A stretch of 64,000 nucleotides of DNA from Microvirga terrestris (GTDB lineage: Bacteria; Pseudomonadota; Alphaproteobacteria; Rhizobiales; Beijerinckiaceae): assembly GCF_015694425.1 (NCBI RefSeq), contig NZ_JADQDN010000001.1, forward strand, positions 186,001 through 250,000. The letters are read 5' to 3'. This document shows positions 20,335-48,816 of the stretch, piece by piece. The notes under the pieces were generated by a model that was not told where the DNA came from, searched no databases, and saw only the letters and a program-made list of their open reading frames with translations. The translations under genes and the position numbers were made by a program. Positions within the stretch are counted from its first letter, which is position 1; every line of letters starts with the position of its first letter.

Positions 20335-21750
20335 ATGAGCGACACCCTGGAAACGCCCCTTTTCCGCCCGCCTCACCCAAAGCCGCGCACCGAGCTTCTC
20401 GGCATGATGGCCTTCCTGCGCGCCGTTCGCGAGAACCCCTTGAACATGTGGATGGAGGCGCACTTCGAGGAGCCGGTCGTCACGGGCGAGGGAGCCTTGG
20501 GCCGCATGACCGTGGTGAGCGACCCTGCCGGCATCCGCCATATCCTGGTGGACAATGCCGCCAACTACCGCAAGGACGACCTGCAGATCCGGATCCTGGC
20601 GCCTGGCTTAGGCCGGGGCCTCGTGACGGCGGAAGGCGACGAGTGGCGGCTTCAGCGCCGCACTCTGGCGCCGCTCTTCACCCCGCGCACGGTCACCGGC
20701 TTCTTCCCAGACATGGTGGAGGCGGCCGATCGTCTGGTGAGGCGATGGCAGAGACGGTCCGACGGCCGCGTGGTCGATGCGGCTCTCGACATGACCCGGG
20801 TTACCCTCGATGTGCTGGAGCGGACCATCTTTACCCAAGGCGTGCCCAAGGACCCGGACGCCCTGGGACGGGCAATCACCCGCTACTTCAACTCCATCGG
20901 CCGGGTCGACCCGCTCGACATTTTCGGCTTCCCGGATTGGGTGCCCCGGATCGGGCGCCTGCGAGCAAGACCATCGATCCAGTTCTTCGAGGAGACCGTC
21001 AATGAACTGATCGACGCCCGCAAGGCGTTGCTCGCCAGCGGGGAGCCTGCTCCCCGCGATCTGCTCACCCTGCTCCTGGAGGCGGCTGACCCTGAGACGG
21101 GCAAGGGCCTCAGCGACATCGAGGTGCGGACGAACATCGTCACCTTCATCGGCGCCGGGCATGAGACGACGGCCAACGCCCTGTCCTGGTCGCTCTATCT
21201 CCTCTCGCAGGACGAGCATGCCCGCGCCCGTGTCGAGCAGGAGGTGGACGAGGTGCTGGCAGAAGGGCCGGTCGAGCCCCACCACCTGGAGCGGCTCGTC
21301 TATACCCGGGCTGTCATCGACGAGGCAGTGCGGCTCTATCCGCCCGCACCTTATATGAGCCGGACGGCTATCGCGGATGATCGAATCGGGGATGTGGATA
21401 TACCGGCGGGATCGATGGTGGCGATTGCTCCTTACGTGCTTCACCGCCACCGGAAGCTGTGGGACGAGCCCGATGCCTTCAGGCCTGAGCGCTTCCTGCC
21501 GGAAAACCGCAAGCAGATCGACCGCTTCGCCTATCTGCCGTTCGGAGCGGGCCCGCGAGTCTGCATCGGGGCGAGCTTCTCCCTGCAGGAGGCCGTGATC
21601 GTGCTGGCGACCATCGCCCGGTCCATGCGGCTCGATCTCGTAGAGGGGCACATGGTCGAGCCCGTGCAACGCATCACCTTGAGGCCGCGGGGCGGCCTAC
21701 CCATGCGCGTGACACAGCGCGTGAGCAAAGAGGCTTTGGTCGAGGCTTAG
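20335..21750 (+). CDS. Cytochrome P450
   Basis: Haem-thiolate monooxygenase of 471 residues, soluble by sequence. Diagnostic motifs: I-helix GAGHETTANALSW (about 274-286), K-helix ExxR in DEAVRLYPP (about 329), and haem-binding FGAGPRVCIGASF with the thiolate Cys at about 410. It resembles the bacterial fatty-acid/alkane-type P450s related to CYP102 haem domains rather than camphor-type CYP101. No ferredoxin or reductase gene is adjacent, so the electron donor is encoded elsewhere. The frame is open to 20260, but the ATG at 20335 (MSDTLETPLF) gives a standard start. Confidence 0.92.
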   Translation: MSDTLETPLFRPPHPKPRTELLGMMAFLRAVRENPLNMWMEAHFEEPVVTGEGALGRMTVVSDPAGIRHILVDNAANYRKDDLQIRILAPGLGRGLVTAEGDEWRLQRRTLAPLFTPRTVTGFFPDMVEAADRLVRRWQRRSDGRVVDAALDMTRVTLDVLERTIFTQGVPKDPDALGRAITRYFNSIGRVDPLDIFGFPDWVPRIGRLRARPSIQFFEETVNELIDARKALLASGEPAPRDLLTLLLEAADPETGKGLSDIEVRTNIVTFIGAGHETTANALSWSLYLLSQDEHARARVEQEVDEVLAEGPVEPHHLERLVYTRAVIDEAVRLYPPAPYMSRTAIADDRIGDVDIPAGSMVAIAPYVLHRHRKLWDEPDAFRPERFLPENRKQIDRFAYLPFGAGPRVCIGASFSLQEAVIVLATIARSMRLDLVEGHMVEPVQRITLRPRGGLPMRVTQRVSKEALVEA

Positions 21751-21757
21751 GAGGCGC

Positions 21758-22351
21758 TTAGTTCTTCTTACGGAAGGCGTCGAGGCTGACGACCTCGGCG
21801 GTGCCTGAGGCGGCGTCGGACTCGGGAACCTGCTCCACTGGCGCCTCGGTCTGCTCGGCCTTGGGAGATGCGGTCGGCTTCTCCGCCGCCGAAAGCGCTT
21901 TGCGGGGCTGCTTCAGCTCCACGGGTTCAGACGACGTATCGCGCACCGGCTGAGGTGCGGGTGCAGCCTCGGGGGTCTCCTCCGCTTCGTCATCCTGGCT
22001 GTCGAACTTCAGGCCGAACTGCACGGACGGGTCAAAGAAGCCGGTGAGGGCATCGAACGGAATGAGCAGCCGCTCCGGGATGCCGGAGAACGACAGGCCC
22101 ACTTCGAAAGTGTGCTCCGTGACGTTCAGGTCCCAGTACTGATGCTGGAGAACGATGGTCATCTCCTGCGGGTATTTTTCGCGCAAGCGGTTCGAGAGGC
22201 GAACGCCTGGAAAATCCGTCTGGAAGGAGATGTAGAAATGGTGCTCGCCCGGGAGCCCGTCCTTGGCATCGATCAGCACCTTGCGCACGACGCCCTTGAG
22301 AGCATCCTGCACCAGAAGATCGTAGCGGATCAGGTCTTTACCACCGGCCAT
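21758..22351 (-). CDS. sspB: SspB adaptor protein (alphaproteobacterial type)
   Basis: Adaptor that binds the ssrA tag on trans-translated proteins and tethers them to ClpXP. The 197 residues have the alpha-type SspB core (IRYDLLVQDALKGVVRKVL, HHFYISFQTDFPGVRLSNRLRE, IVLQHQYWDLNVTEHTFEVGLSFSG, IPFDALTGFFDPSVQFGL; residues ~8-130). An acidic, Pro/Ala/Glu-rich linker and a short C-terminal tail (VVSLDAFRKKN) follow, the latter corresponding in position to the ClpX-binding tail of other SspBs. Its start lies about 17-27 bp downstream of the tmRNA terminator on the same strand, so the adaptor and the gene encoding its tag are neighbours. Confidence 0.92.
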   Translation of the reverse strand: MAGGKDLIRYDLLVQDALKGVVRKVLIDAKDGLPGEHHFYISFQTDFPGVRLSNRLREKYPQEMTIVLQHQYWDLNVTEHTFEVGLSFSGIPERLLIPFDALTGFFDPSVQFGLKFDSQDDEAEETPEAAPAPQPVRDTSSEPVELKQPRKALSAAEKPTASPKAEQTEAPVEQVPESDAASGTAEVVSLDAFRKKN

Positions 22352-22367
22352 AAGCGAGCCCTTGCAG

Positions 22368-22403
22368 AAACAAAAGTGGAGGCTTCTGTTGCCAGGTGCC
22401 TCC
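22368..22403 (-). terminator. Rho-independent terminator of ssrA
   Basis: On the minus strand a six-base stem (GGAGGC at 22403-22398, GCCTCC at 22383-22378) with a 14-base loop is followed by ACTTTTGTTTC. It lies between the tmRNA coding piece and the sspB start. The hairpin may be part of the mature tmRNA coding piece as well. Some readthrough into sspB is possible. Confidence 0.55.
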
Positions 22404-22692
22404 GGACCCCGCCTTACGGTGCTAACCGCAAGGGCTTTGATTCGGCGTTAGGGACCGCTTACGCAGCCACTGCAACCGGAGCATAGTTGTCGTTGGCAAC
22501 TATAGATTCGGCCCGATAACGGCGGAACCATGCCGAGCGAAAGTCTACCCTTTACGCCCTCGTCGATCCTATTTCGCCCCCGCCGAAAGCCAGATACTGC
22601 CTGGATTTTGGTGGAGGCGCCGGGTACCGCCCCCGGGTCCGATGGGTTTATTCCGATAGCCGTTTATCGCCATAGCCGATCTTGCGACCGGC
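22370..22692 (-). ncRNA. ssrA: tmRNA gene, circularly permuted two-piece form
   Basis: Rescues stalled ribosomes and adds a degradation tag. Read on the minus strand, the acceptor piece comes first (about 22692 to 22609). It ends in a five-base T-stem CCGGG/CCCGG, the acceptor 3' strand CGCCTCC (22619-22613), discriminator A and encoded CCA (22611-22609). A 27-base spacer follows. The coding piece then starts GGGGGCG (22581-22575), which pairs fully with CGCCTCC and places a G-U wobble at the third pair, the alanyl-tRNA synthetase identity element. The tag frame GCC AAC GAC ... TAA (22497-22459) encodes ANDNYAPVAVAA. This order (acceptor before coding) is the known alphaproteobacterial permutation. 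The loop of the T-arm reads GGCGGTA rather than TTCRANN. Exact mature ends are estimated. Confidence 0.95.
22459..22497 (-). other. tmRNA tag-peptide reading frame
   Basis: Thirteen codons, GCC to TAA, giving ANDNYAPVAVAA after the alanine carried by tmRNA itself. The preceding bases TAGTT before the resume codon GCC match the usual UAGUC-like element. The C-terminal VAVAA has the two alanines recognised by ClpX, and the N-terminal (A)ANDN part is the SspB-binding region known from Caulobacter and E. coli tags. Confidence 0.95.
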
Positions 22693-22698
22693 ACCCCC

Positions 22699-22727
22699 AA
22701 TATAGGCAGGCTGGACAGATTTTGAAA
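22699..22727 (-). promoter_or_regulatory. Candidate ssrA promoter
   Basis: On the minus strand TTTCAA (22727-22722) and TATATT (22704-22699) are separated by exactly 17 bases and lie about 7 bases before the first G-rich bases of the tmRNA acceptor precursor. The -35 box is a weak match to TTGACA, while the -10 box is good. Position and spacing support it; no other candidate is nearer. Confidence 0.5.
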
Positions 22728-22799
22728 GAGTGGGGATGGAGATGAATCGCGACTCGGAGGGGCAAACAGCCTGACCTATAATGCGTCGAGGAGTACCGT

Positions 22800-23594
22800 A
22801 TGCAGGCCTATCACGATCTCATCCGCCGCATCATGGACGAGGGCGTCCGCAAGGACGACCGGACCGGAACGGGCACCATTTCCGTGTTCGGCCACCAGAT
22901 GCGCTTCGATCTCAGCGAGGGTTTTCCGCTTGTCACCACGAAGAAGTTGCATCTGCGCTCCATCATCCATGAACTGCTCTGGTTCCTGAAGGGCGACACC
23001 AACATCCAGTATCTGAAGGACAATGGTGTTTCGATCTGGGACGAGTGGGCGGACGAAAAAGGCGACCTCGGTCCGGTCTACGGCAAGCAGTGGCGCTCCT
23101 GGGCCAAACCCGATGGGGGCACGGTCGATCAGATCCGCTGGGTCCTGGATGAGATCCGCCGCAATCCGGACAGCCGCCGCCTGATCGTCTCCGCCTGGAA
23201 TCCGGCCGACCTCGACAAGATGGCGCTGGCGCCCTGCCATTGCCTGTTCCAGTTCTACGTGGCGGAGGGGCGGCTCTCCTGCCAACTCTACCAACGCTCG
23301 GCGGATGTGTTCTTAGGGGTTCCCTTCAACATCGCATCTTACGCGCTGCTCACGCAGATGATGGCGCAGGCGACCGGACTGCAGCCGGGCGATTTCGTCC
23401 ATTCCTTCGGCGACGCGCACCTCTACCTCAACCATCTGGAGCAGGCCCGCCTGCAGCTCTCCCGGGAGCCGAGGTCTCTGCCGAAGCTGCGGCTCAACCC
23501 GTCCGTGCGGTCGCTGTTCGATTTCACCTACGACGACATTGCCATCGAGGATTACGACCCGTACCCGGCCATCAAGGCTCCCGTCGCAGTCTGA
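22800..23594 (+). CDS. thyA: Thymidylate synthase ThyA
   Basis: Methylates dUMP to dTMP using methylene-tetrahydrofolate, yielding dihydrofolate. The 264 residues equal the E. coli length. Landmarks: [22 protein letters not shown] (about 20-40), [31 protein letters not shown], the active-site Cys146 in [11 protein letters not shown], and [23 protein letters not shown], then HLYLNHLEQ. The product dihydrofolate is the substrate of FolA, encoded about 2.7 kb downstream on the same strand. Divergent from ssrA; the gap of about 70-100 bp must hold the promoters of both. Confidence 0.97.

Positions 23595-48740: not shown

Positions 48741-48816
<76 letters not shown>

Follow-up and report, generated by a model that had tools for sequence, protein, structure and literature searches.

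A native tmRNA gene in Microvirga, the promoter it most likely shares with the adaptor gene sspB, and its apparent replacement by mobile-type tmRNAs

Is the gene of a protein-tagging RNA joined to that of the adaptor serving its tag by position only, or by a common promoter, and what becomes of the adaptor gene once the tagging RNA is lost? Nearly all bacteria have a tmRNA, as a rule encoded by one native gene, and in the SspB families the adaptor passes ssrA-tagged proteins to ClpXP. In Escherichia coli, sspB belongs to an operon with sspA. In contrast, sspB of the window (the whole 64,000-nucleotide stretch of Microvirga terrestris DNA analysed here) follows directly after a tmRNA gene and is apparently transcribed from the ssrA promoter. 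A search of the literature, mostly outside subscription journals, found no report of an ssrA–sspB gene order or of the replacement of a native tmRNA.

The initial annotation of the locus had proposed a permuted, two-piece tmRNA on the minus strand directly upstream of sspB, within coordinates that indeed span the promoter, the tmRNA, and sspB. A covariance search with the Rfam alphaproteobacterial model (alpha_tmRNA, RF01849) bears this out, matching the minus strand at 22731–22375 over the full length of the model (positions 1–355 of 355) and scoring 321.5 bits (E 4.8e-93), where the gathering score is 50. With RF04321, the general model of permuted tmRNA, the same gene scores 158.8 bits, and ARAGORN agrees in calling a permuted tmRNA at 22701–22368 (minus) with the tag ANDNYAPVAVAA and a stop. 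This native permuted two-piece tmRNA is referred to below as tmRNA1. Its parts and neighbors are as follows.

22800–23594, plus strand: thyA, the divergent upstream neighbor (NCBIfam thymidylate synthase)
22699–22727, minus strand: ssrA promoter TTTCAAA-N16-TATATT, facing sspB (promoter scan, pattern comparison)
22675–22692, minus strand: 5′ leader hairpin GCCGGTC-GCAA-GATCGGC (folding z −2.85)
22609–22671, minus strand: tmRNA acceptor piece with T-arm, acceptor 3′ strand, and encoded CCA (RF01849, RF04321, sequence)
22582–22608, minus strand: intervening segment of 27 nt, from the CCA to the coding piece (sequence)
22375–22581, minus strand: tmRNA coding piece, from the acceptor 5′ strand to the 3′ hairpin (RF01849 to 22375; acceptor pairing)
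22459–22497, minus strand: tag frame ANDNYAPVAVAA and stop (ARAGORN, sequence)
22378–22403, minus strand: 3′ hairpin GGAGGC...GCCTCC, then ACTTTTGTTT (folding z −2.33 for a 65-nt stretch)
21758–22351, minus strand: sspB, the alphaproteobacterial SspB adaptor of 197 aa (PF04386)

The finer details that had been read from the sequence also hold. The 5′ end of the coding piece, GGGGGCG at 22581–22575, forms seven of seven pairs, G3–U70 among them, with the acceptor 3′ strand CGCCTCC at 22619–22613, after which ACCA is encoded, and the expected tag frame is the one that ARAGORN returns. The ANDNYAPVAVAA tag is common to 30 Microvirga tmRNA1 loci (L001, L006–L034). tmRNA1 is an ordinary RF01849 member, sharing with the family the G3–U70 pair, the encoded CCA, and a tag ending in AA, and showing no difference from it; its processing into two pieces would be as established for that family, and its alanylation is predicted. 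The native tmRNA of G042 (L191) encodes CCC, not CCA, after the acceptor strand. Only one further RNA gene of the window passes the threshold, a tRNA-Lys (CTT) at 48741–48816 on the plus strand.

From the end of the tmRNA1 model match (22375) to the ATG of sspB (22351) the gap is 23 nt, in keeping with the 20–25 bases first estimated, and the whole thyA–sspB interval measures 448 bp. The downstream product is an ordinary member of PF04386 (167.2 bits against a cut-off of 27; E 3.5e-49). It ends in VVSLDAFRKK, and the form VVSLD[AS]FRKK, which we take to be the ClpX-binding motif, is present in 16 of 16 aligned SspB proteins.

Gene order across genomes bears directly on the physical linkage of the two genes. 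tmRNA1 is present in 42 of 48 Microvirga genomes, counting a decaying copy in G037, and in each of these 42 sspB lies downstream on the same strand, 53–64 bp separating the tmRNA from the SspB domain match. Outside the genus, 53 relatives within Hyphomicrobiales were compared, of which 44 were decidable; 41 of these 44 have the tmRNA–sspB order, with gaps of 51–387 bp. tmRNA and sspB lie 17 kb apart in G070 and 1.6 Mb apart in G060, and the sole tmRNA of G055, a mobile-type one, is 105 kb from sspB. Matches on separate contigs leave the order undecidable in six relatives (G051, G063, G067, G071, G074, G097); neither gene was matched in G069 and G076, and sspB alone was matched in G086. Since sspB is not beside tmRNA in G060 and G070, the linkage is not indispensable. 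The conserved gene order rules out that the adjacency is unconserved, so the physical linkage claimed at the outset stands, and by this distribution the ssrA–sspB order is evidently old.

tmRNA1 is not the only tmRNA of this genome. A second, divergent permuted tmRNA (tmRNA2), with the tag ANDNVDMGAVRLAA, lies at G000:C11:263161–263546 (ARAGORN: L003:13189–13595), 54 kb from tmRNA1 and 13 kb beyond the end of the window, and scores 153.4 bits with RF01849 and 142.6 bits with RF04321. Its T-loop is ordinary and tRNA-like (TTCGATT), unlike that of tmRNA1, and its tag begins with the same (A)ANDN as the tmRNA1 tag. Because of this second RNA with its other tag, the linkage of tmRNA1 to sspB does not cover all tag output. 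By strict filters, which may miss weak matches, 26 of the 48 Microvirga genomes have both tmRNAs, 16 have tmRNA1 only, and 6 have tmRNA2 only; tmRNA2 is found in 32 of the 48 and coexists with tmRNA1 in 26 of its 32 carriers. The exact ANDNVDMGAVRLAA tag recurs in 33 of 45 sequences designated T2, a set that includes Enterovirga, phage, plasmid, and other members.

The affinities of tmRNA2 point to mobile elements. In an unrooted tree of 38 tmRNA sequences and 199 columns (G058 left out), 13 tmRNA1 sequences split from the other 25 with a support of 100, and tmRNA2 of Microvirga, Enterovirga, and two other bins form one group (support 81) among plasmid and phage sequences. These phage and plasmid relatives were gathered by similarity, and two viral contigs by pattern; tags among them are ANDNVRMDAQALAA, ANDNVGMEMRLAA, and ANDNVDMGSYALAA. 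The nearest phage neighbor of tmRNA2 is CcrPW, on a very long branch and under thin sampling. In Microvirga sp. VF16, tmRNA2 resides on a 1.39-Mb plasmid. Viral contigs L206 and L207 carry tRNA clusters and a permuted tmRNA with the tag ANDNVDMGSYALAA.

Signs of both function and decay are seen. Both strands of the acceptor stem have changed, to GGGGACG and CGTCTCC, in Enterovirga rhinocerotis and in a metagenome bin of Enterovirga, which fits a working RNA; L095, L118, and L127 have these acceptor strands, and the acceptor-pair counting gave no count for L199. On sequence features, tmRNA1 of G037 (G037:C327:27453–27811; 226 bits, not found by ARAGORN) and tmRNA2 of G004 (G004:C62:25668–26049; tag ending in VCLAV, one acceptor mismatch) look like decaying copies of opposite kinds. 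tmRNA2 occurs in two copies each in the tmRNA1-less genomes G044 (L046, L047) and G046 (L048, L049). Its intervening piece measures 28–51 nt in the six tmRNA2-only Microvirga and 86–92 nt in seven two-tmRNA genomes compared.

Parallels exist in the literature. The OM43 phage Melnitz carries a two-piece tmRNA (PMC9004378), which tmRNA2 resembles in falling among phage and plasmid permuted tmRNAs; tmRNA2 differs in residing in bacterial genomes, in having a tag conserved across species, and in that some of these genomes have no other tmRNA. Additional ssrA alleles (a second or a third), sometimes plasmid-borne, appear in the accessible portion of "Ends of the line for tmRNA-SmpB" (2014; PMC4131195), where such genomes, like Microvirga, have more than one ssrA; neither replacement of the native gene nor a promoter retained at sspB is described in that portion. 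Phrases denoting a second tmRNA gene, or two, multiple, or paralogous ones, were found in no paper of a mostly non-subscription literature.

Downstream of tmRNA2 is a gene for a 246-aa protein (L003:13620–14360, plus strand), an arrangement that mirrors tmRNA1–sspB. The open reading frame starts 24–33 bp past tmRNA2 in 23 of 25 two-tmRNA loci examined, is absent in G041 and broken in G023, and was not seen next to tmRNA2 in any of the six tmRNA2-only genomes. Pfam gave nothing above cut-off for the protein, and neither PHROG nor the PDB sequences nor phages yielded a match; one plasmid did. Its AlphaFold model is poor (pLDDT 43.8). Upstream of tmRNA2, few genes are common between loci.

The six Microvirga genomes without tmRNA1 speak to the transcription of sspB. 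With thyA, located by tblastn, as the marker of the locus, thyA and sspB prove to be neighbors on one contig in all six, separated by 217–281 bp in five and by 393 bp in G046, and most of the tmRNA1 body is gone or unrecognizable. The promoter stays: TTTCAAA-N16-TATA[ATC]T is present at six of six loci, 134 to 201 bp upstream of the sspB ATG (−134 to −201) and facing sspB. With its exact spacer, the pattern has no match in 1,135,804 control strand-bases from 36 other loci, nearly all of Microvirga and including one Methylobacterium stretch. Among the 42 tmRNA1 loci (G037 included), 36 have the strict promoter pattern, 2 a looser one, and 4 neither, and in two of these four, which were inspected, the −35 box reads TTCCAAA. 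Within the loss clades G017–G044–G046 and G010–G021, the −35 box matches at 7/7 and the −10 box at 5–6/6 positions, and the 16-nt spacer at only 7–13/16. SspB itself gives dN/dS values of about 0.14 (G044/G046), 0.10 (G010/G021), and 0.18 (G017/G044) in tmRNA2-only pairs and of about 0.18–0.28 in three tmRNA1-carrying comparison pairs, by simple counts with dS near saturation in some pairs; on these ratios, SspB after the loss of tmRNA1 is under purifying selection. Given a promoter kept at every loss locus, a pattern absent from the control, boxes conserved over a drifting spacer, and purifying selection on SspB, sspB most probably relies on the ssrA promoter. The transcriptional linkage that had been suggested for ssrA and sspB thus gains indirect support from the promoter kept at six loss loci and from the scan of 21700–22900, which found no other promoter-like site; readthrough of the ssrA terminator, by which tag output and adaptor level would be coupled, is a hypothesis.

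The foremost alternative, which we regard as unlikely, is that sspB has a promoter of its own, located in the coding piece of the tmRNA or in the 23 nt between the genes, the adjacency reflecting descent only. tmRNA1 does end in a hairpin with a T-rich tail (22403–22371) that could end most transcription, in which case sspB might use a promoter unseen by the scan, and promoters within structured RNA genes are possible. The terminator scan matched no terminator and did not call the hairpin at 22378–22403, which together with ACTTTTGTTT is possibly a weak terminator or a processing end. Against a separate promoter stand the scan of 21700–22900, which detected nothing promoter-like besides the ssrA promoter, and the six loss loci, which dropped most of the coding piece and kept the ssrA promoter.

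It is less probable still that the promoter in tmRNA1-less genomes is an undecayed fossil that says nothing of sspB. Other remnants do linger there: the 3′ hairpin in G044 and G046, part of its sequence in G017, and a T-arm-like piece of tmRNA1 in G010 and G021. An equivalent of the 5′ leader hairpin is kept in G002, G017, G044, and G046, four of the six Microvirga, and also in G055, and folding of the six loss loci did not find it in G010 and G021. Both promoter boxes, however, are intact at all six loci, where little of the tmRNA body is left or recognizable, and box-intact pairs differ at 3–9 of 16 spacer positions, with sspB dS of 0.86–1.4. That the tmRNA2-only genomes are assembly gaps or contamination is scarcely credible: the drafts do comprise about 20–220 contigs, but the contiguous thyA–sspB interval in six of six already contradicts it, completeness is 99–100%, close relatives in the rpoB tree have the tmRNA2-only state in common, and decay is seen in tmRNA1 of G037 and in tmRNA2 of G004.

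Dependence of sspB on the ssrA promoter thus remains the preferred reading, and the history of the losses can be traced with rpoB. A tree of 52 taxa, 46 of them Microvirga, and 4044 columns (without G004, which has no rpoB match, and G025, which has fragments only, of the 48) places tmRNA1 losses in three places, besides the G037 pseudogene; as some backbone supports are 51–77, the case for three separate losses rests partly on the differing remnants. Outside Microvirga, the G055 locus (Methylobacterium) has, by eye, a similar promoter, a hairpin, and a CACCA remnant. Upstream of sspB in three Enterovirga loci, a search for the Microvirga promoter pattern gave no match; by eye, the E. rhinocerotis sspB locus has a −10-like box and a hairpin, and other Enterovirga have less. 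Nor was the pattern found in eight tmRNA1–sspB relatives outside the genus (L076–L080, L082, L083, and Camelimonas at L126 and L135). Since tmRNA1-carrying relatives, which have differing promoters, are also without the pattern, its absence outside Microvirga is uninformative.

Replacement of the native tmRNA seems to extend to other genera of the family, of which 219 genomes were surveyed for tmRNA matches. In genus g81, taken as Enterovirga, 8 of 9 genomes were matched, each by one weak tmRNA match only. In genus g9, 3 of 11 sampled genomes (G055, G175, G236) have only a tmRNA with the ANDNVVMDARLAA tag, and G297 has both kinds; rpoB of G055 shares 97.9% identity with a record of Methylobacterium bullatum, and in the tree the tmRNA of G055 groups as sister with that of a Methylobacterium plasmid (support 100). 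By these matches, Enterovirga and some Methylobacterium have mobile-type tmRNAs only. G153, one of three sampled genomes of genus g61, has only the ANDNVATSEVRLAA tag; its tmRNA is outside the tree, which makes a fourth genus of replacement less sure. G224 resembled a further replaced genome, but the native tag is present at the edge of one of its contigs, so it was not counted. It is likely, in our assessment, that the native tmRNA was repeatedly replaced in Microvirga, Enterovirga, Methylobacterium, and probably a fourth genus by tmRNAs of phage or plasmid ancestry with different tags, and that sspB of Microvirga survives on an orphaned ssrA promoter, pointing to an ancient ssrA–sspB operon and one adaptor for two tags.

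For the locus itself, we consider it quite likely that tmRNA1 and sspB form one unit on the ssrA promoter, that a mobile-type tmRNA2 replaced tmRNA1 in some genomes, and that promoter and sspB stayed since sspB needs the promoter and its product serves the other tag. The ssrA promoter would drive both genes as a single transcription unit, RNA polymerase producing the precursor of the tmRNA and some of the transcripts presumably continuing past the 3′ hairpin to supply sspB message. As established for the family, cleavage of the precursor would yield separate acceptor and coding pieces; tmRNA1 would add (A)ANDNYAPVAVAA to stalled proteins, and SspB would pass them to ClpXP, again as established for the families concerned. 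A tmRNA2 of the mobile-element type would then have entered the lineage, coexisting with tmRNA1 in most carriers and replacing it in some. Upon loss of tmRNA1, most of the gene body would have gone, and promoter and sspB would have stayed.

The points of interest here appear to be the promoter shared by tmRNA1 and sspB and the repeated replacement of the native tmRNA. Repeated replacement by mobile types, together with decaying copies of either kind, suggests that a core quality-control RNA can be swapped. If this is true, the replaced species would be natural tmRNA1 knock-outs that reveal an ancient ssrA–sspB operon. The retained promoter would allow a direct test of whether the amounts of tagging RNA and adaptor are set together, and the presence of two tags per cell would make adaptor specificity testable in a natural setting.
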